Positions 17,276 to 60,241 of a stretch of DNA of 64,000 nt are shown here, one piece after another. The position numbers were made by a program, and so were the translations under genes. The stretch is from Hygrophila difformis. Its lineage: Eukaryota > Streptophyta > Magnoliopsida > Lamiales > Acanthaceae. Every line of letters begins with the position of its first letter. Positions within the stretch are counted from its first letter, which is position 1. Under the pieces are notes generated by a model. The model worked only from the letters and a program-made list of their open reading frames with translations. It was not told the DNA's origin and made no database searches. The stretch is from contig JAOANR010000002.1 in the NCBI GenBank assembly GCA_030278955.1, positions 18,586,057-18,650,056 of the forward strand, given 5' to 3'.

Positions 17276-20200
17276 GTGCCCCTTTCCATCATGTTTATGG
17301 ATTTTGCTGTTTTCAAAAATTCCAAAACATTAGCGTGGAACGTGGGAGGCCTTATTGGCGATCCCACTAGAAGGGTGTTGCGGGAATTGTTAAGGGTTAA
17401 CAACCCGGATATTGTTTTATCTTTGAACCTCAATCCTCCTTTGAGAGATCTCGGAATTTGTTCCTAGCTGCCGGGTATGTGGAAGTGTGTATCCATGAAG
17501 CTCATAGTAAGGCTGGGGAAGTGTGGACTCTAAGCCGCCATGGATTTAGACCCCAGACCCAAGTTATCGATGAAAATGAGAGGATGATCACTTTAGGTTT
17601 GTCCTCTGGATCCTCCTCATGGATCATTACTGGACTTTATGCACCGCCGAAATACTCCGAAAGGCGAATCTGTTGGGATCAATTACTCCAATTATCGTGG
17701 TGAATTGATGAACCGTGGGTAGTTATCGGAGATTTCAACCAAATTCTATCCTCTTCCGAAGTCAGAGGAGGGCTCTATAATCTGGCTAGGGCAGAGGAAT
17801 TGGGGAACCTATTAGATGACTGTGGCCTATCGACAATTAACACCCACGGAGGCTACTTCACGTGGTCTCGGCCAATGGAGGAGTGCCAACAGATTCACAA
17901 AAGGCTGGACAGATGTGTTATCAACAAGGATTGGTTGGACACCTTTCCGGAAGGATTTGCCAAGATCATACCGGGGGTTGGATCCGATCATTGTCCGCTC
18001 CTCCTCTCTTGTGGTTCCATCCCCCAGAAAAGATATGGAATCCCATTCCGGTGGGAAACAGCATGGGCCGAACACAAGGAATACTCTGAGGTGGTGGAAA
18101 AAGTCTGGAACTTTAATGAACCCTTGATTTCAGAAAACCTGAAGGACGTTGGGAAGGCCTCGGTGGAGTTTCAAAGGTCCAAAATGGGTAATCTCAAGTG
18201 GAGGAAATTTAAAATCCTCAAGAGACTTGAAGGAATAGCCCGCACCCTGGAGAAAGTCGACTCGATCCGGCTTATTCTTTTGGAATCTGAATTAAGAAAA
18301 GAGTATGAATCCATCTTGGCTCAAGAAGAGGTATACTGGTATCAGCGATCCAAGGATAAGTGGGTCCGGTTGGGGGATAGAAACACGGCATATTTTCATG
18401 CTCGTGCTAAAATGAAAGGCCATCGGAAGCGTATTCATGGGCTCACTCTATCCAGTGGTGAATGGTGTGAGGATAAGGACCTTCTTCGGTCTCATGCTTA
18501 TGATTTTTTCAACAATTTATATGCGGGTCAACAACAGTCTCTGGAAGATAGAATGGCCAGCTTGGATGATCGTTACTATCTGCCCCACTTTCCTGCCATC
18601 TTAGAGGAAGAGGGTAATGCACTTAAAAATAATGTGACTAGGGAGGAAGTCAATATGGTGGTTAACGGGATCAACGGCTTGTCGGCTCCGGGACCGGACG
18701 GATTCCCCGGATTTTTCTTCAAGCAATTTTGGCCTACGGTTGGAAACTCTGTTGTCACATTTGTGGAGAAAGCATTCAGAGAGTGCAGCATACCAGATGC
18801 TATGGGCAAAGCATTTATTTGCCTGATACCAAAAAATGCTGCTCCAACCTCCTTAAAAGAGTTTAGGCCCATCACCTTGTGCAATGTTCTTTACAAAATC
18901 TTGACCAAGATTCTTGTAAACCGAATCAGACCACTCCTCTTGAATCGAATATCCCAACACCAAGCTGCATTCCTTCCCGGAAGAGGACCGGTGGATAATG
19001 TCATCATCCTGCAAGAACTGGTATCCAACTTGACTGGCTCGCAGGCTCGGACTCAGGCCATTATACTCAAAATCGACATAGCGAAAGCATACGATAACGT
19101 GCTATGGGACTTCCTTGATCAATGCTTAAGTGAAATGAACTTGCCTGCCACAGTCAGGAAGTTGATCATGGCCTGTGTTCGTTCGCCCTCTTATTCGGTG
19201 CTTTGGGATGGGGAAGCATTGGAGGAATTCCAACCGGGGAAAGGCCTTCGGCAAGGGGATCCTATATCCCCATACCTCTTTTTGATCATCATGGAGAAAC
19301 TCTCCCTACAAATTCAGAAATTGGTCGACCAAGGGATTTGGAAACCGATCCGACTGACACAAGGGGGAACTGGCATATCCCACTTGGTGTTCGCGGACGA
19401 CCTCATCCTTTGCTCCATGGCGCATAGAGAAAGCATCGAGAGCATTTCAGCATCACTCAAGGCCTTCTCCACAATGTCTGGACTGAAATTAAACCTCCAA
19501 AAATCAGCTCTCTACATTTCCAGGGCGGTCCCTCAGGCGGAAAGGAACTGGATCTCTGAGACAATGGATATTACGGTGGTGGAGTCCCTTGGGACCTACC
19601 TCGGTTTTCCCATGATTATGGGCAGACGACGTTGCAGTGATTTCACCTTCATTTTGGACAAGATTGAGGCGAAAATGAAAGGATGGGCATGCAAGCTACT
19701 TAATAAAGCTGGGAGGATAACCTTGTGTCGCGCGGTGTTGGCGGCAATCCCTACATACTTTATGCAGCTACATTTGTTACCTGCCTCTATCTGCCTGGCC
19801 ATCGACAGCAAAATCAATCGTTTCATATGGAAAGATAGAGCCGGGAAAGGCCTTCACTTAATTAAGTGGGAGACTTGCACTCTTCCAAAAAAAGAGGGTG
19901 GTTTGGGTATCCGTAAGGCTCGGAACATGAACTTAGCCCTGTTGGGGAAGCTTGTATGGAGTTATCTTCACTGCCCTGAAAAGATATGGGTTAAGCTCTT
20001 GAAAGAAGTCACCCCTGGTAAGGGAGAATTCATGATCTTAGGCCACTCCCACAAATCGAATCTATTCACCTTGCTCCAAAAATTGATGCAGATATTCAAA
20101 GGGGGGTTTAGATTTCGGATTGGCAAGGGTGCTGCCTCCTTGTGGTTCTCGGAGTGGTGGGACAGTGTTCAGATTGGAGCCCTCGTACCGTTTGTGGAAA

Positions 20201-21402
20201 ACCAGGATCTGGAATTAAGAGTGAGGGATGTAGTTAACCAAGGCGTGTGGAGGTGGGATGTTGTCAAGACACTAATCCCAGGGCATATTATCCAGGAGAT
20301 CTCTGCTGCCCCCCCCCCCCCCCCACCAGTCATGCATGAGATGGTGCCAGATATATGGTTGTGGAAGGGGACCAAATCGGGGATCTTCTCAGTTAAAACA
20401 ACCTACCAGTTTTTGAATTGGAGAGCAGAGAGATCAGAGGGCTGGAGCTGGATCTGGAAGGCAAGCACCCCGGAGAAAATAGGAGTCCTCCTTTGGTTAA
20501 CTTGCCATGATTCTTTGTCGGTCAACTACACTCGATACAAGAGGAACTTAACTTCATCTCCCTTGTGTGTGTTGTGTGGAGTCTCGGAAGAAGATTGGAG
20601 CCACTGCATATTCGCATGCCCCCGGACACATCCTATATGGAAGCAGCTTAATATTCCAGTCCCCATGGATTGCAAGGAAATGAATAAAGAGAAGATAAGA
20701 GAGCTCCTTGAAATCTTGATCCGAACCTTTGGTCACCGGCTAGTGGCAGCCATATGGACCATATGGTTGGAACGGAATGCCCGGATATTCAGAGGAGTCC
20801 AAAGATCTACATGGACTCTCCATCGAGAGATCATCAGGCTTTCCCTTACTCTGGAACAGGCGGGTTTGAAGCAGAAAAACCAGACGGGCAGGCCTAGTAG
20901 GATTCATTGGAATCCTGAGGGAGGTGATGAAAGTATTTTCTATGTGGATGGTAGTGTTTTCCAGGACACTGGACATTCCGGATTTGGTTTTTTGGTTCGG
21001 GACAGCGAGGGACGACGGCGTGGAGGCGGGAGTGGCTTCCTTGGACACACTTCCATTCTCCAGACCGAACTGGCGGGGCTTGCAACAGGCCTTGATTTCA
21101 TTCTTCTGAAAGGGATTAAAAAGGTTTGCTGCTATACTGACTCTCTTGATGTTATCAAGCTGCTGGATGTTGAGACTCCGAGCCACTCCTTGGCTCCACT
21201 CATATATCGGATTAGGGAAAAGAAGAGGAAATTTGATGGTTGCCGTATCCTATTTTTGAGGCGGGAAGGGAACAAAGTGGCGGACATTTTGGCGAAACAC
21301 GGGGCCTCGTCAGAAGACTTCTATACCACATGGGCCTTCCCACTGGACTTCATCTCTGGGGAGTTGGAGGCGGACAGAGCTGAGGACGTGCCTCCTCCTT
21401 GA
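17276..21402 (+). pseudogene. LINE ORF2 (endonuclease-RT-zf-RNase H); endonuclease broken, RT part open
   Basis: The AP-like endonuclease begins near WNVGGLIGD (about 17335). It has a frameshift near 17418-17430 and an in-frame TGA at 17701-17703. From 17704 the frame is open to 21402, with 1,200 codons counted from the ATG at 17800. It has the end of the endonuclease (SDHCPLL), RT with APGPDGF, RQGDPISPYLF and catalytic FADD (about 19393), a zf-RVT zinc region (CVLCGVSEEDWSHC, about 20565) and a C-terminal RNase H (YVDGS, ETELAG-like QTELAG, YTDS). A 16-C run near 20311-20326 encodes a proline stretch. Target-primed reverse transcription is the family's role. The endonuclease breaks make this copy non-autonomous. 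Confidence 0.88.
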
Positions 21403-29649: not shown

Positions 29650-29990
29650 GCACTCTTTGTCCACTACTTTCTCAAGTCAATACTTCACCCCGATGGACAT
29701 TTTTTGTGATTATTGTCGGAACCAATGTACCGCCTGTCAATACTTCACCTCAAGGACATGTTTTCTCATTCTTGTCAGAAGCAACGCAATGCCAGTCAAT
29801 ACTTCAACCTACATGATATTTTCTCACACTATTGTCGGAACCAATGTACTGTCAGTCAATATTTCACCCCTCAAGACATTTATTTCCATTTTTTGCAAGT
29901 CAATCATTCACCCTCCAATACTCTATCATTAGTTATGTACTACCAACACTTTTCCAAAGATCACCAGGATAAGTTATGAAACATGACTGC
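29650..29990. repeat. 60-bp minisatellite, block 1
   Basis: Four to five diverged units of about 60 bp around GTCGGAACCAATGTACTG and AGTCAATACTTCACC with ACATTTTTTCC-type spacers. Some units are partial. Confidence 0.75.
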
Positions 29991-30284
29991 TGAACAGAAA
30001 TAAAGGAATTTCTCAAAATAGGTGTAGAGGGCCAATGATATCTCATATAACACAATTCACCCTATACCCTAATATCTTATTACACGTGATGCAACAATAT
30101 ATATCTGACTGTGTCTAAAAATGGATCATTTATAAACACTTCAGCATGCTTTAGAGATTAACCTTGGCTCTTGTTGATAGTCATTGTATAATAAACAATT
30201 AGTGGAAACTGACGTCTTGAAAATTTAAGCGGTATTCTATGATCAGATGAGGTCAAACTCATTCATGGAATAATCACTCAATCT

Positions 30285-30520
30285 CCACTACTTTCGCGAG
30301 TCAATTCTTCACCCGAGGACATTTTTTCCAATTCTTGTCGGAGCCAATGTACTGACAGTTAATACTTCACCATCCATGACATTTATCCTCACTCTTGTCG
30401 GAACCAATGTACTGCCAGACAATGCTTTACCCTCTATGATATTTTTTTTCCATTTTTTCGCGAGCCAATACTTCACCCTCTAGTACTCTATCATTAGACA
30501 TCTACTGCTAACACTTTGCC
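30285..30520. repeat. 60-bp minisatellite, block 2
   Basis: Three to four diverged units of the same minisatellite between the second and third helicase fragments, in the same orientation as block 1. Confidence 0.72.
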
Positions 30521-30861: not shown

Positions 30862-30866
30862 GTGAG
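30862..30866. other. Left target-site duplication of the Tat element (GTGAG)
   Basis: GTGAG immediately precedes the left LTR and recurs at 43412-43416 immediately after the right LTR. Removing the element rejoins a continuous minisatellite unit. Confidence 0.93.
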
Positions 30867-31560
30867 TGTTTTCCCCTCGGCGTTATTGTCGCCGGGAAAG
30901 GACCTTTTTCTCCTCAAGGGAGGCTACCGGATAAAGGATCAAACCGGTTACGGGTCCGGATTAATGATAATGCGCCCAAACTTGATCAATTACGCCCAAA
31001 CTTGACTGAAGGTTCCTTGATATTCAAATGGCAACAAAATACAACGGAGAATCTACCTGTTGTTAAGAAACAACGGCGAATTCACCGGAAAACTAGAACC
31101 AAACTACCGGTTGTTGAGGAACAACGGTGGACTTGGAAGTAACTGCTATGAGCTAAACTAGAATCTAGGGAAAAACTGTAAAGGAAAGCATTAAAGGAAA
31201 GCAGTAAAGATACAAAGAAGTAAATTTGATAAAGGGATTTTGGGGGTTGGATTGATCTCTCCCATTTTGTGCATGGCATCCCCTATTTATAGCCGGAGCT
31301 GAAATAACCGCTCTCCGGCCGATTCCCTTAAGCCGATTCCACTGCTCACTTCGATCGGCTGAATTGATGTTATTTCGGCCGAAATCCTTCCATTCGGAGC
31401 TTTCTTCCTTTCGGGATCCTTCTGCTGCTCTGGATCACTCCCTTTTGATTCTTCGGCCCAATGGATCTCTAACTCGATCTTCTTCGAAAGTCTCTCTTCG
31501 GCCCATCTTTTATGGCCCGATTCTTCTCCCCATGGCCCCCTATCCTTTGTGGCCCCAACA
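30867..31560 (-). repeat. 3' LTR of the Tat element
   Basis: TGTTTTCC...CCCAACA, 694 bp. Contains CTATTTATAG at 31283-31292, near-palindromic, so it can act as a TATA box on either strand. It stands about 450 bp before the antisense PMD start. A 13-bp direct duplication (about 31190) is absent from the other LTR. Confidence 0.94.
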
Positions 31561-31739
31561 GATGCCCTCCTTACTTGGGCGGTTTTTCGTCTCGAAAAGA
31601 GCTCAAGTAACTCCTCTCTTTTCCTTTGGCGGTTATCTTTCCCCTCAAGGGCTCTTCATTATCATCACTCTATTTACATATTCCATTTTGTCTTCATAAT
31701 AAACCACCCTTTCAACTTCCCTTTTGTCTGTCCTCCTCG

Positions 31740-34700
31740 ATGGATTTGTCTTCTTCGATGGATCTTCCTCCCGTCACTGCTCTTTCCTCAGATCTTCTCA
31801 AGATCGAGAACACGTATGCTTCTACCTCCGCTATGCGTCTCCTTCCTGAAGGATACTACTCCCTCGGTCCATTAGGGATTCTCGAAGAGATTGACGAGTG
31901 TACCGCTCGTATCTTCGAAAATCGCTCCATACCATTATACTCTTCTTGTTTTTCTTCCAAGCTTTTCTCTCCGTCATTTGCTAATTGGCCTTTGGATTCC
32001 TCTGATTACGTAAAATGGTACCATCACCTTGAACCTCACTGCCGTGAGTCCTGGTCGAAATCTTGTATTCGTCACATGATTCTTCTCAGTACCATACCTT
32101 TTCCGTCTGACATTCGTCCCATTCAGGCTCTCCTCTGTTTCTGGAATCCTTCCGTAAACTGTTTTTGTTTCCCTTGGGGTATGATGACACCCACTATCCA
32201 AGATGTAAAGCTCCTTTTAGGCCTTTCTGTTCGTGGAGAGAACCTCTGTGTTATGTCCATTCCCAAGGAGAAAAATGTCAGCTTCTCTTCTGGTGATTCT
32301 TTCAAGAATTGGATTATCACTCATCAGAGCGATCCTACTTCTCCTGCTCCACATCCCTCGGAGCCCCTAGCTTTCATGATGTATTTCCTTTCGAGGTTCT
32401 TTTGGTGTACTTCTTCGAAAGGAGTTCTCCTCGAGGTTCAACCTCTGGCTTCGGCGATTCTCAACCTTGTTGCTATGCCTTTAGCCGATTTCTTCCTCGC
32501 CCATCTGTACGCAGGCATAACGGCTACTGTGTCGGGCTGGGAGAAGGGTTTCCCTGATAAAGCCCGTGGTCCATTATGGTTTCTTTATCTATGGTTGGTG
32601 TGGCATTTCCGCGATATCTCCAAGTTCCCTGCTCAAGATATCTCCCCTAGCTATTTCGCCGCTCCTGATCTCCTAAGGTCATCCCTTCCTGGCCTCTCGA
32701 TCCCGCATTGGGTCAATTATTTCTTTGGCCGAACTGTCGATCAGTCTTTTTCCCAGTACCATTATAGGAGGACCGAATTCGACTGGGTGAGGGAGATCGC
32801 CACTTCCCCTTTCGGGACTGTCCTTCACGTATCTCTTGCTCAGATGTGGAATAGATGCATACTTCCCCGCCCCATTTTCAACGGTTCTTCATTTTTGTCT
32901 ACCAAGATGGCTATCCCTTCCGAGGTTTATAATCCCCATTTGGTTAGCCGTCAATTCGGCTTCGGTCAAGACTTGGTAGTAGCTCTCCGGGCCGATAAGC
33001 GCCTTTCTGCTTCTGCTAGCCGTGCACAATGTTCTTTGTACCATAAGCGTTTACTTGAATTTAAGGTGGTGAAATTTGCTGTTCGTCCTGGACTTGCTAC
33101 TTCTCGTTTTCGGGCTTGGTGGGACGGCGTTGCTCGTACCTTTTTCGGCGCTGACCTCTATTCGCTTTTACGGCGTGGTGGATTCTCTCCTATTCTGGCT
33201 TTTCCCTTACACCTTTTATCTTCGCCGAGTTCTACTCCCCGGCGCACTCTTGGTTTGTCTTCTTCCTCTCATCTGGGTAAATCTCTCTTTTCCCCTCTCC
33301 CTTTTTTTTTTTTGGAGTGTTCTTTCTCATTCTTACATTTTTCTTTCTCTTTTTTTTTTTTTTTTTTTTGTTGTTAGATGCTCCTCGCTCTTCTACCTCG
33401 GATCCTGGTCGAAGGAGACCCGCTTCGTCTTTAGACCCTCTTGTCGGCTCTCTCCCTCCAACTCAGACTAGAAGGCGTTCATCTCGCTCACCTTTCGGCA
33501 ACGTACCTTCTGCCTTACCAGTATCGAGTACCTTCCCAATTTTGACTATTGCTCCGAGTGCTCTTTCAACCGAACCACACAAGTCACCAGATGGTAATAA
33601 TTCGGTTGTCCGTGCTGGTTCTTCTTCAGCCATTTCTACAGATTTGGCCCAAGAACCTATTTCGACCGATCCTGTTATTTCTCCCTCGGTCAATCCTCCC
33701 CATCCTGCCGGAGATTCTGTTGTGTCTTCACCCTTGGCTGCCTTGGAACCCCTCAATCTTTCTCTTGCTGGCACAGTTACTGGTGATGTCTCCGCCGATC
33801 AGGTTCCCTCATCTCCACTGCCTGATCGGCATATTCTGGATGACTTTTTTTCTCCTATTCCTCCGTCTCCTCTTCCATTGGACCCCTCGACTCATCTTGG
33901 CGAGTGTTTGGCCCAGTTATGTAATCTGATCACCAGGCAATCCAATGTGGAATTTGTCAACCCAAAACCGATTCTCCTCCTTTTGTCTCATCTTGAACAG
34001 CATTTCCATGAGGAGATGGTCTCCTTAAACCTGAGTAGTTCTCTTCAGATGATTATGAAGTCTGTCCTCTCTATGGACCAAGAGCTAGTAGCTCATTTGG
34101 TGATGCGGAACAAACTTGCTGCCGAACGTGAGGCCGCGGCCTCTTCTCAAGCTATCTTTGATAACAACTCAGCGGAATATCAGACCACCATGCATGCTCT
34201 TTCTGAAACGGAGTCTCTGGAACATAAACATTCTGAAGATCTTTCTTTAGTTCGCTCACAGATAACCGCACTTCAACAACGAGAGCGAGAGTTGGAATCA
34301 GCTTTGGACAAGACTAGACGAAAATCGGCCAATTTAAAGCAATCGATAAAAGTTCTTCGTCAATCGGCCGAAGCCCCTAAAGCCATCATCTTGGACTTTC
34401 GACGGGATGCTGCCTATCTCGCCATGCGGTCTAGTTTTAATGACTATATACTCGGCACTTTCCAAGAAAAATGGGCCGAAACTCAATCCTTAGTCGGCCC
34501 GCTCGATTCGGCTATTAAAAGCCTTGGTGGGAAAAGTGTTGCTTATGTTCTTTCTCCCCCAACTTTATTTCCTTTGGACCCGTCGGATATGGAATCTTCC
34601 CCGTCAGATGATGCCCCTTCATCTTCCAAGGCTCTTGCAGGTACTTTATCTTTTTCCCTTTTGTTGTTTGCTTACTCTTTACTTTTTACTTCATCGTCCC

Positions 34701-34894
34701 TTTTTCTCCTACTTATCTCAGGGAAATCTGCTGTCGGTGTTAACTTGGCCACCGATCGTCCTTCTTCGAGCAACGTTCCTGGCCCTTCCTTGGCAACGGA
34801 TTCGGGTTTGATTACGTCTACCCTCAACCCTTCTATCGACGCTCTCCAAGGATTGGACGATGATATCCATTTTGACGACAGTGCTGATCACTAG
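31740..34894 (+). CDS. Antisense captured gene in Tat element: plant mobile domain + coiled coil, 990 aa
   Basis: Three exons: 31740-33276, 33378-34640 and 34722-34894. Introns are CTGG|GTAAAT ... T-tract ..GTTAG (101 bp) and GCAG|GTACTT ...CTCAG (81 bp), with matching phases; 2973 nt are open to the stop. Residues about 1-512 form a plant mobile domain (aminotransferase-like PMD), with hallmark FPWGMMTPTIQDVKLLLGL from F144. The middle is Ser/Pro-rich. A coiled coil spans about 756-841, followed by an acidic Ser-rich end. An in-frame ATG at 31626 would add 38 residues. PMD occurs in MAIN/MAIL1 (gene silencing, genome stability) and in transposons (family knowledge). Its role here is unknown. 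It is antisense to gag-pol, which is on the other strand. Confidence 0.82.
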
Positions 34895-35966
34895 TTTTTT
34901 TCTGACTATGTCTTATGGGCCGAAATTTCGCCCTGTTTTGCTTTTGCATATAAATCTTTACTTGTTTCTATCGACTGTCGTCGGCCCCCCCCCCCCCTTT
35001 TTTTGTAAATTGTATTGGCCGACGGAATGTACTTGGATTCGTATATTTTTATTTCTGCTATGTGATTCGTATCTGATTCGTTCCGCGATTTCTTCGGTCT
35101 TCTTTACTACTGGTTCCTGGATGTTAGCAGCTTTTTCCGGGAATCAGCTGTAACATTTTTCCATAAATAACATTTAATATTGACCATTTCTCCTTCCAAG
35201 TATTTATCCTTCTTCTATAAATACTTGGCTTTTATCCGTGTTTATCCATCATCTGCTCAACTCAATATGGCTCCCCTTTTTCCTTTATTCAATCCCCTAT
35301 CTCCAATGCCTCCATGGTTTCTGACTTATGTATTTTCAAGGATTTCCAGACGTGATACGAAAACTTTCCGCCCATGCGGCACGAGTTCAGCTAACACTCC
35401 TCTCATCATGCTAGTATGGGCGAGGATCTTTATTTATCATTCCAAATGAAGGTCCCGACGGTCATGCGGGCATTTCTCTTTTCTACTTTGCGGTTGCATA
35501 TCCTGTCGGACCTTTTCTAACGGGGAACCCACTTCTTTTTGTGGTTTCCCCATTCTCTTTTCCCTTCTACCACCTTTGGTGACTTCCTCGCTGCACTTCT
35601 CATCTTCTCGTCTGAGATAGTGCGGAGGTTGTTCCTGCATTTGACTTCTTCCTCTGGGCCGTTGTATTATTCGTCATAGCATCCCCAGAGGCTGAGGTTA
35701 GGTGGCTGAGTTAATCGGCGGTGCTGTTGTTATGAAATCAGTGATCTCGTCTTCGCCGATATATCTAGGCGGCATTTGTATAAGGCTGGGAGTCCTTCAA
35801 CTTCCTTTAGTTAGGACCTTTCCCTTGTATATGCCTGCTTAGCATAGGACGTTTCCCTTGTATATTGTAATTTCGGACTATCAACGCCGTCTTCGGCCGA
35901 AGTAGTGCCGTTTATGTAATGCTCATTTTCGCAATAAACTCTTTATTTTTTTTCGCCTTTTAATGT
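34895..35966. other. Spacer between antisense gene end and integrase end
   Basis: Convergent 3' ends of the antisense gene and of pol lie here. Includes a 14-C plus T run (34985-35006). No supported ORF; the 89-codon frame at 35180 has no recognisable features. Confidence 0.6.
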
Positions 35967-37001
35967 TTAATCCCACGCTGATGGATAATATTTCTTCATA
36001 TATCTTGCATTCACTAGATTTGACATCTGTTCGCCATTTTCATCCACCAACATGTACGCTTCATTCGGTAATTTCGTCTGAACAATAAACGGTCCCTCCC
36101 AATTGGGGCTCCACTTACCTAATCGGCCATCCTTCTGTTTAGGTGGCCATATAACTTTCCAAACTAAATCGCCGACTTCAAATCGTTTCACGCGAATTCG
36201 CTTATTATACCAATCGGCCACAATATCTTTATTTTTCTTCAAATTCTCATAGGCTTGCACCCGATCAGAATTAACTTCTAATAATTCATTCTTCATCGCA
36301 CAATCATATTGTTCGGCCGTCATTAAATCTGCTTGGCTTGTTCTTAAGGTCGGCACTGTTATTTCGGCTGGAAGTACTGCATCCATTCCATAAGTCAGCC
36401 GAAATGGCGTAAATCCAGTGGCTGAAGTCTTGGCATTTCGATAAGCCCATAACGCTTCCGATAACTTCTCATGCCACTTTCTTGGTTGATCTTCTATCAT
36501 TTTCTTTATAGTTCCTATCAATTGCTTATTTGTGGCCTCTGCCTGCCCATTCCCTTGCGGATAATAAGGCGACGAATGCACAATTTTTATCCCGTATTCT
36601 TTCGCAAAGGCCTTGACTTTTTCTCCCACAAATACAGTTCCTCTATCTGTTAGAATCGTCTGTGGAATTCCAAATCTATATATCAAATGTCTTTTAATGA
36701 ATTCGATCACTTCCTCTTGCGAAATGCTGACATAAGCCTGAGCTTCGGCCCATTTTGTAAAATAGTCCGTTGCCACTAGCACAAACTCATGCCTTTTTGA
36801 TGAAGAAGGATGAATCTTTCCAATTATATCCATAGCCCATCCCCGAAATGGCCATGGCTTAATCATTATGTGCATCTCTTCAGCCGGTAACTTCTGAATC
36901 GGCCCATGTTTTTGACATTCGCGGCAACCTTTGGCATATTTCTCACAATCAATACCCATATTCGGCCAATAATATCCCAGCCGAATAATACCCCATTTCA
37001 T
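35967..37001 (-). pseudogene. Tat pol, integrase part (344 codons after an in-frame stop)
   Basis: Continues the RT frame after a TGA at 37008-37010. Contains the CxxC of the HHCC zinc finger (CRECQKHG; its His pair lies before the stop), the catalytic core with the Asp of MDIIGK, the second Asp of TDRGTVF and the Glu of QAEATNKQL, then a C-terminal VKRFEVGDLVWKV domain. Integrates the element cDNA in functional relatives. Here it could be made only by stop read-through or from another copy. Confidence 0.88.
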
Positions 37002-37007
37002 CGATTT

Positions 37008-39334
37008 TCACGCACGATGCGCGCCGCATATTCCTTCATGGACTTCTCCCATTACTCTTCTAGCATCTTCTTCTCCGACACATCTGAGTAATACCCCATC
37101 AATGGCTCGCTTAAAGAGTAACCCTCCTATCACTATATAATCCATCACTTTCTGCTTCTCGGTTGGACTTGCTTCGGATGGATTCTCCAAGGTCTGCGCT
37201 ATCTTTTTTATCCATTCGGCCTTTTCAGTTTCGGCCAAATATATTTCCAAATTTTCCGCTATCGGCATCAGCCGATACCTAGCTGCATGCTGAGCCAGTT
37301 CGTTAGCTAATTCATTTTTCTCCCTTGGAATATATTCGATGTATACCTCATCGAATTCTTCTAACAAACCGATTGCTTCTTCGTACAATCCAATTAATTG
37401 GGAACTTTTAACCAAAAAATCTCCTAACAGCTGCTGAATAACCACTTGTGAATCTCCTCTGATTACGATAGCCCTTATTCCTTCTTCTATAAGTTTTCGT
37501 AATCCCGAAATTAACGCCTTATATTCAGCCTGGTTATTCGTATAAGACTTCGGTAATTGTACGAAATACTTGTATACCTTGCCCTCCGGTGTATGTAGAG
37601 TAAACCCTGCTCCAACCCCTGAAGCGGCTTTTGAACCATCGAACATCATTATCCATGGTTGCAGATATACAATTCCCTCTTCATTTATCTCTTTCGGCCT
37701 AACTTGATCCCCGACGTCCTCGGATACCGGGAGCATTACATGGTCGGCCAAAAAATCGGCTACGATTTGTCCTTTCATAGCCCTGAGTGGCTGATACTTC
37801 AGGTCGTATGCATTTAACTTCATGGCCCACTTGGCCATTCTTCGGCTACTGATGGGATCGTTCATCATAATTTTTACTATATCAACCGAAGCTACCACTA
37901 TCACTTGCCGTGGTTGAATATAATATTCCAACTTCTGACATGCGTGATAAAGACTTAAACACAATTTATGAATCGGCGAGTACCTTAATTCGGCATCCCT
38001 GAGGATTCGACTTAGATAATAAATCGCCCGATCTCTTCCTTCATCGTCCTCTTGAGCCAACAACGCTCCAATAGACTCTTCGGCTGCTGCTATGTACAAT
38101 TTGAGCGGTCGACCCAAAACTGGAGGGACCAACACTGGTGGATTCACCAGGGCTTGCTTCAATTGCTCAAATGCTCTTTGTTGATCGTCTCCCCATATGA
38201 ATTCCTCCTCTTTCTTTAACCTTAGTAAATCGGTTAATGGTTTCGACTTTCCGGCTGCATTTGCCAAAAATCGCCTCAAGAAACCGATCTTTCCAAGGAA
38301 TTTCTGCAGACTCTTCTTATCGTGTGGAGGCCTGGCTTCTTGGATTGCTCTGGTTTTATTCGCATCGACTTCTATTCCCTTATTGTGTACCAAGAACCCA
38401 AGAAAATTTTCTGCTTGCACTCCAAAAGCACACTTAGCTGGATTCATCTTTACTCCATGTAATCTCATTCTTGCGAACACCCTCCGCAAATCGTCCAAGT
38501 GGCTTTCCATATCTCTAGATCTGACCATGACATCATCGATATAGACTTCAACGCATTCGCCTATTAGATCATGAAACACGTAATTCATGGCCCTTTGATA
38601 AGTAGCTCCTGCATTCTTCAAACCAAATGGCATTACTACCCATTCGTATATTCCTATGGCTCCTGGGCATCGAAATGCAGTTTTATGAACGTCTTCTTCG
38701 GCCATAAAGATTTGGTTGTATCCTGAATATCCATCCATGAATGACAACATCCCCTGTTTTGCGGCCGAATCAATCAACAAATCAACAATAGGCATCATAT
38801 ACTCATCTTTAGGAGTGACTATATTAAGATTTCTGAAATCGATGCAAACTCTCAACTTTCCATTCTTTTTTATTACAGGAACAATATTCGACAACCACTC
38901 TACATATTTAGCTGGCCTCACAAACCCGGCCGCTAACAATTTTTCTATTTCCTCTTTTATTCTAGGAACTATTTCGGGCGCTGCCCTCCTGGTCGGCTGT
39001 TTATGCGGCCTGAACCCTTCTTTGATTGGCAATCTGTGCTCCACAATCGATCGCTCCAATCCTGGCATCTCTGTATAGTCCCATGCGAAACAATCCTTGA
39101 ACTCGATTAGGACCTCCTTGAATCGGCTTGTCATTTGCTGATCTAAATTTGCACTCACTGGGATCTCCCTCGGGCGCTCGTCTGTGTGACCATTTTCAAG
39201 GGGTCTTGAGCTTTGAAATCTGGTGTTCGTTTTGGAATTGCATCCATTAAGTCACTCCATCCTGCTTTGTCATCTGAAACTTCGAGTTCGGCCGATTCGA
39301 ACTCGATCGCTTGATTCGGTTGTGCATTCATCAT
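37008..39334 (-). pseudogene. Tat pol, RT-RNase H-aRNH part, frameshifted at its start
   Basis: Pol begins with an ATG (39334) that overlaps the gag stop as ATGA. One base is missing in the C-run at about 39200-39203, so the first roughly 44 codons are in a different frame from RT. From there the frame is open to the TGA at 37008-37010. Domains: RT with VYIDDVMV (YIDD), LTR-type RNase H (LYIAAAEESIGALL, then YSPIHKL), and the extra archaeal RNase H with D (FDGSKA), E (NQAEYKAL), D (RGDSQVV). The catalytic residues are intact. The breaks suggest no full Pol from this copy. Confidence 0.9.
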
Positions 39335-42300
39335 TTACTTTCTTTTTCGACTGGCCGTTCATCGGCCTGATATCTGACCTCAAATCCCAAATCTGTCCAA
39401 TCACACTCGACAACCTGCGGGTACCGATCCCGTACCACTGCTAGGAATGGTTGTATGGGTTCTTCGTATAGCACCGCATCAATTCGGCCGGCTGAGCTGA
39501 CTGGGAACGGAGGTTGGTCTTCTTCCACTTCTTCGACTGTGCCATCCTTTTTCCAGAACCATACTTTCTGGTGCAGTGTTGACGGCAAACAACGAGATGT
39601 ATGTATCCAGCATCGGCCTAAAAGGGCCGCATACGGAACTTCAGCATCTACAACAAAGAACATGGTCGGAATTGATATCGTTCCGACCGTCACATCTACC
39701 AAAATACACCCTTCGGCCGCAGTTTGGGCTCCCACAAAACTCAATACTTTCATTCGTGTAGGGAGTAAATCTTCCTTTGACCGGCTTATCTTTGTCAATG
39801 TGGTTAACGACATGATATTGACGGTCGCTCCTCCGTCGATAAACATTCTTCTGAGCGGTCTCCCATTGACCCAACCCTTCATATACAAAGGTCTCACATG
39901 TTGAGACATCTTTGCAGTCGGTGGTAAAATCGTGCTTGGTTGAGCTTCCGGGACGAACGCCTCATAGCCTTCTTCAGCTACTTTCTCATTTTCGGCCTCA
40001 GGCCGAAATGCCTCAAGTTTGGCGAAACAGAAGTCCACAATGGGCTCTTCATCACCGAAATATTCTCCCTCTTTCTGGCAAAAAACCACAGCTGGTTCAG
40101 AATCAGACCAGTACTCCTCCTCTGCTGTTGTTGTTATCCCTACCATATTTGCACTAGACCCGAAGCCAAACTTGAACTGTCCGATTGAAGGTGTATCACT
40201 ATTCGGAACAATACTTGTTTTTGGCTTCCATTCCCTTGTCCGAATTGGCCTAGGCTTCCATTCTTCTTTTGATTCCGACTGCTCATTTTCAATTTTCGGC
40301 TGTAATACTTTCGGCCGAAATTCAGTTTTGTTTTTGAGCCGATCCTGTCCTTCTTTCGGCTTCCCCTCTACTTTTCCTTCAGACTTCAGACGAGCCGAAA
40401 ATACTCTATTGAGTATTCTTCCTTCCGAGAACGAACAGTCATTTGGGAAGTCCTCTTCCATATACATCATATCGTATTCCTCTTGCTCAGAAACAGCAGC
40501 TGCTTTAAGCCGTTGCATTCTTCGTTTAAAAGTACGATATGATCCCTTTCCTTTCGGAGCTTTTTTCTCCTCTGCCCTCCAGTCTGAATGGTCAAACCGG
40601 CGCTGGCCGAAATGCCTTCTTTCTGGAGAATTTTGGACCCATCGGCCTACCTGAGTATTTGCTGGTGGCCTTCTGAGCTTCTTCATTTCGGGACTGACAG
40701 CTTCCTCAGGAACTGTGATCTGAATCACAGTTTTTTCATTCTGCTTGTCAGCTGTTAACTTCATCTCTGAATCCCATCCGTTAGTTATGATTTTCAACGT
40801 TGGCCTCTCGCTCTTGCATCTGATCTCGTTCTCATGATGTTTGTCCGATTGCTTGATCCACTCCTTTACCTCATAATTCCCCAATCGGTCGAAAACATCT
40901 GTAACTTTCTCCTTTCCCTTCGGAGATCCTAATCTTTTCCATACTCCTGACTTCTGAGCCGATGGCCGATCTCCAAGCCGATCGTGCACAGAACTCCTGC
41001 TTGATGATGTTTGTTCCCCCAATCGATCATGCACAGATCTATTCTGATCAGGATGCACCATCACCATGTTGGCAACAGGGAACGGATTCTTATCGATCGC
41101 CATAAGCCTATCTGGAAACTTCAGCTTCCCATCATCGACATGTTTCTGAATCAGCTTCCTAAAATGTCCACATACCGCCGTTGATTGAGTAGCCGATCCA
41201 TGGAATCTGCACCAACCGGCTTCCAACTGATTCTTAGTGGGCTGTGGATGGTTTCCTTTAAACTCTAACAATCCATTCTTCTGGCAATAATCAAATATTT
41301 CGTCCATTTGTGACAAGTCGAAAGAGTAAAACCTTTGAGATTCATCTCCTCCTTCTTTCTCCTTGCCTCTGGCTGGCCGAAGTGCTGGACAACTCATAGG
41401 TTTCTTTATAATCAATTCTGCCCTTGCAACTTCGGCTAATGCGGGAACGTCATCCGTGTTGTACTCTTCCTGGACTTCACATCTATCCAGAGACTCAGCA
41501 AATGAGGCAGCTGACTGGATAGGTTGTGATCTTCCACTTTGACTTCGGCTTGATTTGAAAGCCGCTTGTTCTGCCAAATAAGTCTCCATCCTTATAGCTT
41601 CGGCCGTTAATTCGGCCACAGTCCTTGGTCTTGTTACCATCAATCTGTCCTTGATGGCAAACTTCAAATTCTGCTTCAAGATTTGAATATATTCATGCTC
41701 AGGCAGCATTGTTTTCATCTGAGCCTTTACTGCATAAAATCTTTCAATAAATTCGGTCACTGATTCAGACGCCTTTTGCTTGGTTGACGTCAGATCTACT
41801 ACCGAAACTTCAGGACTGGTATTATAGAATCGGTCATGGAATAACCGCTCCATCTCGGGCCATGTATTGACCGATCCCGCTGGCAAATTGATGTACCACT
41901 CAAATGCTGGGCCAGTTTGCGACAAGCTAAACAATATCAACTTGTGAAAATCATTTTGCGCAATTCTGGTGCATTGAGCTGTAAATCGGCCAATATGCTC
42001 AATTGTAGAGCGGCCGAATTCTCCAGAAAAAGTGTTAAAATCTGGAACCTTTACCCCTCTAGGCAGTGGATACTGTTCCTCAATATAATCTGGATAAGGT
42101 TTCCGATACATCGGCCTATTCTCCTGGCCGACGATATTTCCAAACTGAGCACGAATAATCTCAGCAATTAACTCTCTGTCAACCAGTTGTGGTGGATTCT
42201 GCTGTTGTGGTGCGTATTGTTGGACCACTGGAGCACGCGGTTGAACAGCTGGTTGAGGCGGTTGATTCTGTTGCTGATCGTACCTTTGCTGTGGAGGGAC

Positions 42301-42705
42301 AAAAGGCCGAGCTCCGTGCCCTCCTTGCGGCCGAAAGGCCTGCTGCTGAAAGTTATGAGGATTTTGCATTGCAGGTGGTGGATTTTGCGCGACTGGAGCT
42401 TGCTGCATCCCCATCGGGTACATATTCCTCGCTATTTCGGCTCTAAACATTGCTGGCATCGCTGCCAGGATATTTCCTTCAATTTGGCGAACCGAATTGG
42501 TAACCGCCGCCTCCACCATGAATTGAACCTGATCTCGGAATCGCGGGGTTAAATCATCGTTTGAAAACTCCTGGCTGAGGAAGTGCGATGGTCCGGGAAA
42601 ACCTGGGGGGAATTCTCCGGCTTCTGCAGCACGTTCTTCCTGGATTGGCGGCAAATCAGTCCTCGCCACCGTGTTTTCCGGTGGAGTTGCTTGTTCGAAT
42701 GCCAT
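39331..42705 (-). CDS. Tat Gag-protease, 1124 aa, open
   Basis: I choose the ATG at 42705 (MAFEQATPP), just inside the primer-binding site; the longer frame from 42780 starts inside the LTR. A Gln/Pro-rich stretch about residues 100-170 is followed by a retrotransposon gag domain (FSGEFGRSTIEHIGRF, then MERLFHDRFYNTSPE, then TEFIERFYAVKAQM), a C/H pattern (WCRFHGSATQSTAVCGHF) where Tat Gags have a zinc-like motif, a long charged linker, and a retropepsin-like domain with FIDGGATVNIM (active-site Asp; DGGA in place of DTGA) and ALLGRCWI. Gag forms the particle and the protease processes it. Fully open, unlike pol. Confidence 0.88.
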   Translation of the reverse strand: MAFEQATPPENTVARTDLPPIQEERAAEAGEFPPGFPGPSHFLSQEFSNDDLTPRFRDQVQFMVEAAVTNSVRQIEGNILAAMPAMFRAEIARNMYPMGMQQAPVAQNPPPAMQNPHNFQQQAFRPQGGHGARPFVPPQQRYDQQQNQPPQPAVQPRAPVVQQYAPQQQNPPQLVDRELIAEIIRAQFGNIVGQENRPMYRKPYPDYIEEQYPLPRGVKVPDFNTFSGEFGRSTIEHIGRFTAQCTRIAQNDFHKLILFSLSQTGPAFEWYINLPAGSVNTWPEMERLFHDRFYNTSPEVSVVDLTSTKQKASESVTEFIERFYAVKAQMKTMLPEHEYIQILKQNLKFAIKDRLMVTRPRTVAELTAEAIRMETYLAEQAAFKSSRSQSGRSQPIQSAASFAESLDRCEVQEEYNTDDVPALAEVARAELIIKKPMSCPALRPARGKEKEGGDESQRFYSFDLSQMDEIFDYCQKNGLLEFKGNHPQPTKNQLEAGWCRFHGSATQSTAVCGHFRKLIQKHVDDGKLKFPDRLMAIDKNPFPVANMVMVHPDQNRSVHDRLGEQTSSSRSSVHDRLGDRPSAQKSGVWKRLGSPKGKEKVTDVFDRLGNYEVKEWIKQSDKHHENEIRCKSERPTLKIITNGWDSEMKLTADKQNEKTVIQITVPEEAVSPEMKKLRRPPANTQVGRWVQNSPERRHFGQRRFDHSDWRAEEKKAPKGKGSYRTFKRRMQRLKAAAVSEQEEYDMMYMEEDFPNDCSFSEGRILNRVFSARLKSEGKVEGKPKEGQDRLKNKTEFRPKVLQPKIENEQSESKEEWKPRPIRTREWKPKTSIVPNSDTPSIGQFKFGFGSSANMVGITTTAEEEYWSDSEPAVVFCQKEGEYFGDEEPIVDFCFAKLEAFRPEAENEKVAEEGYEAFVPEAQPSTILPPTAKMSQHVRPLYMKGWVNGRPLRRMFIDGGATVNIMSLTTLTKISRSKEDLLPTRMKVLSFVGAQTAAEGCILVDVTVGTISIPTMFFVVDAEVPYAALLGRCWIHTSRCLPSTLHQKVWFWKKDGTVEEVEEDQPPFPVSSAGRIDAVLYEEPIQPFLAVVRDRYPQVVECDWTDLGFEVRYQADERPVEKESK

Positions 42706-42710
42706 TTTGT

Positions 42711-42729
42711 GTCCCACTGGGCGTGCCAC
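42711..42729 (-). promoter_or_regulatory. Primer-binding site of the Tat element
   Basis: Minus-strand GTGGCACGCCCAGTGGGAC directly follows the 5' LTR end (ACA). This TGGCACGCCC form is used by Tat-like elements. I do not assign the tRNA. Confidence 0.65.
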
Positions 42730-43411
42730 TGTTTTCCCATCGGCGTTATTGTCGCCGGGAAAGGACCTTTTTCTCCTCAAGGGAGGCTACCGGATAAAGG
42801 ATCAAACCGGTTACGGGTCCGGATTAATGATAATGCGCCCAAACTTGATCAATTACGCCCAAACTTGACTGAATGTTCCTTGATATTCAAATGGCAACAA
42901 AATACAACGGAGAATCTACCTGTTGTTAAGAAACAACGGCGAATTCACCGGAAAACTAGAACCAAACTACCGGTTGTTGAGGAACAACGGTGGACTTGGA
43001 AGTAACTGCTATGAGCTAAACTAGAATCTAGGGAAAAACTGTAAAGGAAAGCAGTAAAGATACAAAGAAGTAAATTTTGATAAAGGGATTTTGGGGGTTG
43101 GATTGATCTCTCCCATTTTGTGCATGGCATCCCCTATTTATAGCCGGAGCTGAAATAACCGCTCCCCGGCCGATTCCCTTAAGCCGATTCCACTGCTCAC
43201 TTCGATCGGCTGAATTGATGTTATTTCGGCCGAAATCCTTCCCTTCGGAGCTTTCTTCCTTTCGGGATCCTTCTGCTGCTATGGATCACTCCCTTTTGAT
43301 TCTTCGGCCCAATGGATCTCCAACTCGATCTTCTTCGAAAGTCTCTCTTCGGCCCATCTTTTATGGCCCAATTCTTCTCCCCATGGCCCCCTATCCTTTG
43401 TGGCCCCAACA
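42730..43411 (-). repeat. 5' LTR of the Tat element
   Basis: 682 bp, TGTTTTCC...CCCAACA. Minus-strand CTATAAATAG at 43143-43134 is the promoter TATA for gag-pol RNA. Directly repeated with 30867-31560. Confidence 0.94.
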
Positions 43412-43500
43412 GTGAGTCAATACTTCACCTCCAAGACATTTTTCCCATTCTTGTCGGAAGCAATATACTGTGAGTCAATACTTCACCCCCCCATGATAAA
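43412..43500. repeat. Minisatellite continuation right of the Tat element
   Basis: Begins with the GTGAG duplication, then TCAATACTTCACC and a second unit. It is the other half of the minisatellite unit cut by the retrotransposon. Confidence 0.8.
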
Positions 43501-45429
43501 GGGCTCTTTCTTCTTATCAGTTGAGTGTGCTTAATTTGCCTATGAATAAATTTATAATAAATCTATTTTTTAATATAAGGGTTATTAAAATAAAAATAAA
43601 TTTAATATAAAAAAATCACCACGCATAATATGGGAATAGATGAATATTTGTAGTAGAATTAGAAAAGATATTAAAGAAACTCAGCTAAAGAAAAAAAAAA
43701 TCATGCATCAAAATATTATAATCCCATACAAATATATTAAAGGAAAACGCTCCATATTATTCTTTTCATTATAATTTTAATAATACTATACTTTAATGAA
43801 AATATAACTTTATATCATTATCCTATATAATTTGCATCATTAAATCACAAAAATGTATAATTGATTAGTAGTAAACTATATTTTAGCACAATATTTGATC
43901 TATTATTTTGAAATGTATTAGAATTTGAATAAATATTTATATTTCTTTTGGTCTTAATATTTATAAAATTTAAAATAAACCCTAAAAGAGCCGAGTAAGA
44001 TAATTGAATTTCTTTTTGGATTTTAATATTGTATAAGTTAATAATATACGCTGGTGTTACATAAAACCATGCAAAATACATATTTGATTATTATAGTTAT
44101 TATCAATAATCCTCTAACATAACTTATACACCAGGATTATGGACCTACAAATGCATGGAAGATAATATAAAAAAGCTAAAAAAAAATAGAGGAATTGGGA
44201 GAAATTTAAATATATTTTTTGTGAATGAAGCATTACACATACACGATAATAAATAATACATAATGCGGAATTTCTTATATAAAATATTAAAAACCAAAAA
44301 GAAAATTTCCTTAGTCTGAATAGGCTGCGCAACAAAGAAAAAAAAAGAAAAGAAATTGAAATACTTAATCAAAAATGAATATATTTTAAAATTAATGGAG
44401 CAAACATTAAAATTAAAGACAAAATCCATTCACGTACATTTCTACATAATATTTTATTCCAATAATATTTTCATTAACATGGTTTCATAAAATATAATAT
44501 ATTACAATATAATTAACTATTAAAAAATAGTATTAATAAATTATCTAAACGGGAAGTCAGATTAAGTGAAATTGTTGATAATTTAATAAATAAGTAATTT
44601 TAATATATCCATGACAAAAAAATATTTAATTGGATGATCGAATTAATATTATAAAAACATATTTATTAATCATATATGCGATTTATTAATCAATTCATTG
44701 ATGATAATAGTGATAGAAGGAGAGATAGCTAATCATGAATTTGGAGTTCCTATATGAAATTTGTAGAGTATATTTTATTAAATGAAATTGTTGCCTAAGT
44801 TAAATCATTATTATTGGGAAATCTATAATTAATTTAAATCATGAATTCGATCATTATTTTATTATTAATTTATGATAAACAAATATTTATAGAAGAATGC
44901 GTGCAATATTTATAATAAATTAATAGTGCTCCATGTACATTGTATTTATTTATTTTATTAGAATTTAGTATGAGACATAAATAATTGAAATATTTTTTGA
45001 TGATTTAAGAATAGTTTTTTTGTTCACATACGTTAGTTTTTAATGTCATAGTGACATCGGAAAATGGTATACATCTAAATCAATTGTCAATATATCAAAT
45101 GCTTCCCAGGCCTTTAATGGACTGAAGTAACTAATAGTTAACTTAATGGATTGAATAAAATAGTGTTATGAATTTCTACCATTTTAACGAAGATGAGCAA
45201 TATAATGCAATAGATATATAAAAGAATTTCTCTTAGAACATTCCACATATAAAAAATATCTACTAAAAATAATAAGAATATTATAAAGCATAATAACTTA
45301 TATGTTAATTCAAAATATAAATTTAAACAGTTTACATAATGTTAGGCCACATTATACAAATAATTTAAATATTGCAGACTAATAAATGATAAAAAAAGTC
45401 AATAATGAAATTACAAAGACCAAGACCAA
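43501..45429. other. Very AT-rich, no gene
   Basis: About 1.9 kb of AT-rich DNA with long A and T runs. Minus ORFs at 43845-44429 are Phe/Ile/Tyr-rich low complexity. Likely Helitron interior or old non-coding DNA. Confidence 0.55.
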
Positions 45430-45862
45430 TGTCGGAACCAATCTACCGCCAGTCAATACTTTACCCCCAGTATATTTTTTCCCATTCGTATCGGAACTGA
45501 TGTAATGTCAGTCAATACTTCACTCTCCGAGACATTTTTCACACTATTGTCGGAACCAATGTACTGCCAGTCAATACTTCATCCCCCAAGACATTTTTCC
45601 CCATTCGTATCGGATCCAATGTAATGTCAGTCAATACTTCAACCTCGAAGATATTTTTTCCCACTATTGTCAGAACCAATGTTTTGCTAGTCAATACTTC
45701 ACCCCATGATATTTTTTCTCATTGTCGTCGTAACCAATGTACGGCCAGTCAATACTTCACCATCCAATACATTTTTTCCTACTCTCGTCAGAACCAATGT
45801 ACTGTCAGTCAATGCTTCACCCTCCAGGACATTTTTTTCCACTTTCGTCGGAACTAATGTAC
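45430..45862. repeat. 60-bp minisatellite, block 3 (about seven units)
   Basis: AGTCAATAC words recur at roughly 45451, 45511, 45571, 45631, 45690, 45748 and 45808, with a 58-60 bp period. It is the longest and most regular block and the same family as blocks 1 and 2. Confidence 0.88.
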
Positions 45863-59000: not shown

Positions 59001-60241
59001 TTTATACAGGAATTTGGTAGCTGGTCGAGGAGTAATTGGAGCTGGAATATTCTTTTAAGAAGGAGGTTGTTCGATTGGGAAAGGGAGGTATGGGAAGATT
59101 TCTTAGATGCTTTGGGGAGATCTCGTTTAAATCGCTTTGTGAAGGATAGGGTGGTTTGGTTGGAGGTAGGGAGTGGGGAGTTCAATACTCGTTCATGCTG
59201 GGGGAGGGCGTCTGGGGTAGTAGAGGCGGCTAGGCAGCTTAGATGGAGTGTTTTCTGGAAAATTAGAGCTCCAATGAAAGTTAAGATGCTTGCCTGGAAG
59301 TTAATTCATCATAGACTTCTGGTAAGAGAGTCTCTTCTTCGGAGAGGGTGTATTTTGTCTGAAGGTGCTATTTGCCCCTGTTGTCAAAAGGAGGTGGAGT
59401 CGGAGGATCATCTTTTTTGTCGATGTGAATTTGCTAGTTTTATTTGGTACAAAGGGGTGGCTTTCTTTGGGGTTGAGTGGGCTGTGCCGGGTAGGTAGAG
59501 GGGTTAATGGATTGGTGGTTGTTTAACTGTCCAGTTAGGAGTAGATGGGAAGGATGGGTTCTAACCGGTTTGGCAATTATTTGGACAGTATGGAAAGCTC
59601 GTAATGCAGCTGTATTCCATGGAACATCTATAGACAAGTGGGCAGCCTTGGAAGAGATTAAATGGTATGTGTCTCTCTGGTGGGAAGCGGCTGGGATGAA
59701 CTCTGGCTATAACATTGGGGATATTGTGCGACAATTTCCAGGGGCGTTGGTTCAGAAAAATAGGGGGCATAATAAAGTGCCCCGAAGAGGTTTAGTGTGG
59801 CTTCGTCCCGAGAAAGGATGGTGGAAGATAAATACAGATGGATCCTCATTCGGCAACCCGGGTCCGGCGGGAATTGGTGGAGTCATCCGAGACGATGATG
59901 GTGAGGTAATTTATGTTTTATCAGATTGTATTGGTGTGGCAGATTCCACTGAGGCGGAAGTTGCGGCAATTAGTCGGGTATGTGTTGCTTTATTAAGGGA
60001 CCAAGGATTCCCACTCCCAAGACTTGTGTTTGAGTGCGATTCGAGCAACGTTGTAAGCTGGATTTCGGATTTGGATAGATTACCATGGCGTGTACACAAG
60101 TTGGTCGGACCGATAGCAACGGTTTTGGCATGCGCGGGAGAGGTTCGTTTCCAACATATATTAAGAGAAAGAAACTCGGAGGCGGATCATTGGGCTAAAT
60201 ACGGGGCAGCAGGGAGTGGTTTGATAGAAGATTGGTTTTGA
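56074..60241 (+). pseudogene. LINE ORF2, several breaks, RNase H intact
   Basis: Endonuclease start MRIISCNLRGLN, with a 16-G run (56110-56125) beside it. A stop at 56302-56304 and a frame change near 56390 follow. HAPN, NGDFNAV and SDHYPV of the endonuclease lie in the second frame. A frame change near 56790 and a TAA at 57337-57339 follow. RT is in 57382-58482 with APGPDGFN, RQGDPLSPYLF and YSDD (about 58147). Frame changes occur near 58445 and 59490. RNase H (INTDGSSFGNPG, EAEVAAI, ECDSSNV, NSEADHWAKYG) is open to 60241. Cannot make one protein. Confidence 0.86.

Follow-up and report, generated by a model that had tools for sequence, protein, structure and literature searches.

The window analyzed here, a stretch of 64,000 nucleotides of the Hygrophila difformis genome, carries a real and intact gene of three exons for a plant mobile domain (PMD) protein, placed antisense to the gag-pol genes of a young Ty3/gypsy retrotransposon. 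It is almost certainly a selected and functional accessory gene, and the dN/dS ratios of its copies show that, as the replicating lineages evolved, purifying selection acted on the PMD and on the C-terminal parts.

Antisense ORFs in Tat elements have already been published. Neumann et al. (2019, PMC6317226) reported a PMD for 57% of Ogre elements, a survey of plant LTR-retrotransposons encountered the PMD more often than any other non-canonical domain (PMC9289625), and Ikeda et al. (2017, PMC5418596) described two clades of the PMD-A group (A1/A2) that gypsy elements alone encode. The PMD gene of the window is a well-supported further case of this known cargo and no new captured system. What is added here is clear natural selection on an antisense PMD cargo across many copies.

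The PMD gene and the element that carries it

The features of the gene and of the element are collected in Table 1. The initial annotation had described three exons that join at GT-AG sites and stay in phase for 2973 nt, with a product of 990 amino acids, and a check of the joined frame returned the same coordinates and the same product. The HMM search that it had proposed, with PF10536 against the exon-1 product, gave 104.9 bits (E 6.5e-30, cut-off 34.9) over profile positions 2–346 of 347. Its account of the protein was accurate in that FPWGMMTPTIQDV starts at residue 144, that serine and proline make up 33% of the linker (residues 462–670) and that the last 57 residues, the acidic tail, hold nine acidic residues against two basic ones. 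The charged stretch that had been called a coiled coil had no Pfam match.

Table 1. Positions of the PMD gene, of its exons and introns and of the parts of the surrounding retroelement, counted from the first letter of the window
Feature	Position	Strand	Remarks
Target-site duplication GTGAG, left	30862..30866	.	
3′ LTR	30867..31560	-	Aligned with the other LTR
TATA-like box in LTR (candidate)	31284..31291	.	Nearly palindromic; TATTTATA on +, TATAAATA on -
18-bp tandem duplication across the start codon	31729..31771	+	TRF
PMD gene, exon 1	31740..33276	+	Starts at 31740 and 31758; PMD at residues 110–461; ends in phase 1
Intron 1	33277..33377	+	101 nt, GT-AG
Exon 2	33378..34640	+	Ser/Pro-rich linker, then charged C-terminal part
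Intron 2	34641..34721	+	81 nt, GT-AG
Exon 3	34722..34894	+	Acidic tail, stop codon TAG
Candidate poly(A) signal of the PMD gene, AATAAA	35933..35938	+	Immediately precedes the integrase frame's 3′ end
Integrase frame, partial zinc-binding domain and core	35967..37007	-	rve 1.1e-13, Integrase_H2C2 6.4e-07
Reverse transcriptase, RNase H, second RNase H (RVT_3, aRH position)	37008..39251	-	Ends at in-frame stop
Gag and protease frame	39331..42786	-	Stop to stop; upstream end runs into 5′ LTR; Retrotrans_gag 2.6e-10
Primer binding site	42711..42728	-	Matches, over 18 nt, the complement of the host tRNA-Arg(TCT) 3′ end plus CCA
5′ LTR	42730..43411	-	Aligned with the other LTR
Target-site duplication GTGAG, right	43412..43416	.	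5-bp

The tandem duplication at the beginning of exon 1 creates two start codons. Because the one at 31758 is kept in all 25 aligned copies and the one at 31740 in only seven of them, we take 31758 as the conserved start, which gives the window copy a conserved product of 984 amino acids. The splice sites had first been picked by eye to hold the frame open, which is the point in favour of reading the gene as chance ORFs or as an artefact of this choice. Such an origin is practically discounted by the PF10536 match, by the conservation of the sites and the codon-specific selection described below, and by the length of the frames: on the PMD strand there are stop-to-stop frames of 588 and 537 amino acids, and in 1000 dinucleotide shuffles of positions 31562–35966 the longest ORF averaged 154 amino acids and had a maximum of 319, none of the 1000 reaching 537.

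Single-sequence AlphaFold2 did not predict a fold for exon 1 (mean pLDDT 35.9), and a PDB sequence search returned four matches, all at chance level (E 0.68–0.94). Rfam had no match in the window. The TATA-like box of the LTR fits a sense promoter at least as well as an antisense one.

The LTR element is complete (30867–43411, minus strand), and its anatomy agrees with the position that had been claimed for the gene, antisense between the integrase and the 3′ LTR. It has the two LTRs, the target-site duplication, the primer site and the gag-PR-RT-RH-INT order of Ty3/gypsy elements, with all aspartyl protease matches in the gag frame lying under the Pfam cut-offs. The LTRs align over 696 columns with 675 identities, 14 gap positions and seven mismatches (682 compared bases). 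In pol, RT_RNaseH occupies residues 381–482 and RVT_3 residues 538–656, followed by the integrase frame. In angiosperms, Tat elements are recognised by an additional RNase H (aRH) placed between RH and INT (PMC6317226), and Ogre has been described with a tRNA-Arg primer site (PMC9289625). Since the window element has both, its sequence points to a Tat element, as had been proposed, and to one of the Ogre type. The pattern of the tRNA-Arg 3′ end has 11 mismatch-free matches in the genome, two of which were examined with ARAGORN: one (L066) is a whole tRNA-Arg and the other (L065), at which ARAGORN found no tRNA, is the 3′ part only. In the window copy an in-frame stop (37008–37010) parts the RNase H from the integrase stretch; the PMD gene is intact.

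The Ogre clade (PMC6317226) resembles the window element in the position of its aRH, in keeping gag-protease apart from the RT frame and in an extra ORF with a PMD. In that clade an intron-like spacer parts gag-protease from RT-RH-INT, the two ORFs being on average 274 bp apart in the survey, whereas 79 nt lie between the gag-protease and RT frames of the window element, taken from stop to stop. The window PMD gene has two introns, and introns in the Ogre extra ORF are undescribed in the portion of PMC6317226 examined.

The gene also has the properties of an aORF-3R, that is, a long antisense ORF, placed in the interval from integrase to 3′ LTR and present in many copies, as in the antisense aORF-3R of Grande (gene23), RIRE2, Retand and PvRetro13 (PMC7264820, PMC11963269). 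These differ in content, since Retand carries a Transposase_28 domain and PvRetro13 an SMC domain, the PMD being unmentioned in the examined parts of these sources, whereas the window gene encodes a PMD. Neither paper uses the word intron in the text examined. More generally, our search, mostly of literature outside subscription papers, found no report of introns in such antisense ORFs, which is weak evidence of absence.

Introns and coding constraint across copies

Exon 1 had 84 scored matches in the genome, window copy included, among 3442 candidates. We aligned the window with 24 other copies taken from these matches. Judged from the alignment, the introns of the PMD gene behave as true introns, that is, their sites are kept and their sequence drifts. 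All 25 rows have GT and AG at the two ends of intron 1, whose length ranges from 74 to 105 nt. Intron 2 (74–88 nt) is unreadable in L035; all 24 readable rows have its GT and 22 have its AG, the exceptions being L029 and L043. Neither intron is held to multiples of three, some copies have stops inside the introns, and between the subfamilies A1 and A2 the introns differ at 45–46% of bases.

The spliced tail has 57 residues in 13 of the 14 readable rows from the window to L042, and 52 in the remaining one (L038). With intron 2 retained, six of 24 rows (the window, L030, L043, L044, L047 and L048) still read through to that tail, so that its removal would be dispensable in the window copy. The other 18 rows reach the conserved tail only with intron 2 removed, and therefore its removal is needed in most copies.

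The initial annotation had suggested computing dN/dS on the antisense frame in other copies, and the ratios obtained are far below 1 (0.06–0.15 for the PMD). Exon 1 as a whole gave 0.156 within A1 (153 pairs), 0.076 within A2 (21 pairs) and 0.097 between A1 and A2 (126 pairs); in the same order, the PMD alone gave 0.146, 0.064 and 0.085, and the C-terminal part of exon 2 gave 0.158, 0.104 and 0.116. Ratios were 0.49, 0.39 and 0.54 in the Ser/Pro linker and 0.34, 0.62 and 0.48 (range 0.31–0.62) in exon 3, which offers about 50 codons. Frame-shifted controls gave 1.34–2.83 for exon 1 and 0.99–1.28 for exon 2. The 24 copies came from the best-scoring, protein-ranked matches (84 scored among 3442 candidates), a choice that favours open frames and so lowers dN/dS somewhat.

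Most copies are decaying. Only four of the 18 A1 rows (the window, L031, L033 and L036) have all three exons without a stop or frameshift. Among the 84 scored exon-1 matches (of 3442 candidates), 54 have no stop, including all 27 of the group at 76–77%. In exon 2 of A2, a difference of 92–94 nt reads as in-frame or as frameshifted depending on the row, and was taken as alignment splitting.

That the antisense transcript matters as an RNA, pairing with the genomic RNA, giving siRNAs and limiting transposition, with the ORF being secondary, is quite improbable in view of these ratios. Antisense transcripts and possible dsRNA effects have been discussed for elements with aORF-3R (PMC7264820), but selection acts on the amino acids (exon 1 dN/dS 0.08–0.16) and the splice sites are kept. 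The RNA-only reading is disfavoured because codon positions should not differ in this way if the transcript served purely as RNA.

The constraint on the PMD can be set beside that on the replication proteins. In six A1 and six A2 elements, window included, RT-RNaseH gave dN/dS of 0.097 within A1, 0.085 within A2 and 0.053 between them, and the PMD in the same elements 0.154, 0.092 and 0.086, which is 1.1–1.6 times the RT ratio. Of 12 further copies examined for RT, 11 have it on the strand opposite the PMD and at a similar offset, and one (L056) had no match where RT was expected. Seven of the 11 RT pieces of other copies contain one or two stops.

A constraint not far from the RT value of these copies is what a core replication protein would show, and the PMD protein might serve replication directly, e.g., in nuclear import of the pre-integration complex, in particle assembly or in the targeting of integration. 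Roles in the pre-integration complex and accessory roles have been raised for antisense aORFs (PMC7264820). We consider a direct role of this kind rather unlikely, though deserving of attention: the gene lies on the opposite strand and has introns, unlike the genes of the gag-pol products, and the PMD relatives studied so far are involved in silencing and in gene expression (PMC5418596, PMC7156037).

Family B and the other PMD genes of the genome

Scanning the 915 Mb genome with PF10536 gave at least 146 matches, some of which are pieces of one gene. Among these, 33 full-length matches at 112–116 bits look like one other family, here family B, whose PMD is about 27% identical to that of the window (family A). 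We sampled 20 of the 33, all on the plus strand and all high-scoring open copies. All 20 loci have an RT segment downstream of the PMD and on the other strand, and at one locus (L009) RT, both RNases H and integrase follow downstream of the PMD.

Five introns interrupt the family B gene. All 20 copies share the same donor 1 and acceptor 1, and at the other eight splice sites GT or AG is kept in 19 or 20 of 20. Intron 1 is located 51 residues past the PMD match in A and 55 residues past it in B, in phase 1 in both, and we infer that it is one ancient intron. The PMD of family B has a dN/dS of 0.155 against 0.92 in the frame control, in a sample of high-scoring open copies that is biased to conservation. 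For the whole of exon 1 the ratio is 0.268, with four frameshift indels. The coiled-coil exon contains a stop in 13 of 20 copies, in the frame used.

In a tree, the PMDs of the A and B elements were split from six other PMDs of the genome with 100/99 support, four of these six being partial, with long branches flagged and no named reference sequences included. This split is in line with the gypsy-encoded PMD-A1 and PMD-A2 clades (PMC5418596), as distinct from the cellular PMD-B and PMD-C, and the element PMDs may belong to PMD-A.

The initial annotation had recommended the gene for study as a captured system. With 84 scored exon-1 matches in the genome, a second family with the same antisense layout, element PMDs that group apart from the six others and a PMD already published for Ogre, capture of a host system by the window copy is not supported. 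A recent capture of a host PMD gene, carried by the window element as a passenger, would draw on the presence of other PMD genes in the genome (L001 and L002, at 340 and 332 bits), whose layout of a PMD followed by a linker is broadly like that of the elements. Nevertheless, the frames of L001 and L002 stay open where the elements have intron 1, and families A and B, at 27% identity, agree in place, in strand and in the phase of an intron. Together with the copy number and the tree, these features make a recent event very improbable. An ancient capture, before A and B split, may have occurred.

Possible roles of the element PMD protein

We find the gene best explained as an antisense accessory gene (of the aORF-3R or eORF-3′R type) of an Ogre-type Tat element, encoding a probable nuclear regulator that would act in trans, most likely in anti-silencing; on balance we favour this explanation. 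As its introns lie on the opposite strand, they cannot be removed by splicing of the genomic RNA during retrotransposition. For the same reason of being antisense to the genomic RNA, the gene needs a separate antisense transcript for its protein to be made, and this transcript must begin in or near the 3′ LTR. In maize Grande, a separate promoter drives the antisense gene, whose product is located in the nucleus (PMC7264820).

According to this explanation, a spliced antisense transcript from in or near the 3′ LTR would give the PMD protein, which would act in trans in the nucleus and regulate the expression of the element itself. A nuclear regulatory role of this sort is fairly probable. The protein would most likely compete with, or divert, the host proteins MAIN/MAIL1 and PP7L, which repress transposable elements; anti-silencing as the mechanism proper is a more tentative proposal. 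MAIN and MAIL1 are PMD proteins of the host that act with PP7L in the silencing of TEs (PMC5418596, PMC7156037), and counter-silencing by a TE-made PMD has been suggested (PMC8616336). An influence on host silencing, as the initial annotation had put forward, is plausible and was already suggested in print. The Arabidopsis MAIN/MAIL1 genes (PMD-C) have the PMD in common with the window gene, but they are cellular genes of another clade, in no retroelement and with a function that has been shown (PMC7156037, PMC5418596), whereas that of the window PMD is predicted.

A more specific form of the anti-silencing proposal may be considered, although we regard it as unlikely. In this form the PMD protein would be a dedicated anti-silencing factor, its intron-bearing gene having been taken up as DNA before the A/B split, made only from the spliced antisense transcript and intercepting MAIN/MAIL1-PP7L.

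The antisense placement offers a simple reason for a retroelement keeping introns. Plant PMD proteins take part in transposon silencing, and related PMDs are found within transposons. Because the gene is found in many copies and in two families, with kept splice sites and a constraint not far from the RT value, the element PMD is worth testing for binding to host PMD proteins and PP7L. If a dedicated anti-silencing factor of this kind were true, Ogre-type elements and the PMD genes of their hosts would be two sides of one arms race.

Intron 1 and other plant mobile domain matches

If intron 1 (33277-33377) of the antisense plant mobile domain (PMD) gene is left unspliced in the window copy, the open reading frame ends at 33377, where the stop is exactly the TAG of the acceptor site.

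Among the PF10536 matches listed for the host genome, a further multicopy PMD group, comprising loci L006-L008 and similar ones, occupies 20 places with scores of 157-182 bits. Matches of this group are interrupted by several stops, which probably reflect introns within the PMD. The same scan of the genome (G000) revealed pairs of divergent PMD matches, spaced by less than 1 kb, in at least two places, which are listed below together with two LINE-type elements of the window.

Coordinates of divergent PMD match pairs and LINE-type elements
Feature	Position	Strand	Basis or content
Divergent PMD match pair	C8:61904700-61906965 of G000	divergent	PF10536 scan
Divergent PMD match pair	C8:62231647-62233952 of G000	divergent	PF10536 scan
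LINE-type element, long open frame	17704-21402	+	1232 aa; matches to RT, zf-RVT and RVT_3 (RNase H)
Second LINE-type element	57340-60241	+	RT, zf-RVT and RNase H spread across three frames

tRNA-Arg fragment and flanking repeats

At about position 1501 of L065, a genomic locus matching the tRNA-Arg end, the 3' part of tRNA-Arg(TCT) with CCA is followed by ATGTTGG, a motif similar to the LTR start of the retrotransposon. This arrangement may have been left behind by reverse transcription that ran on into the tRNA.

Diverged repeats with a unit of about 60 bp were found on either side of the element (29675-30446 and 43427-45862), with GTGAGTCAATACTTCACC among those of the right flank, and these repeats appear to be the site into which the element inserted.
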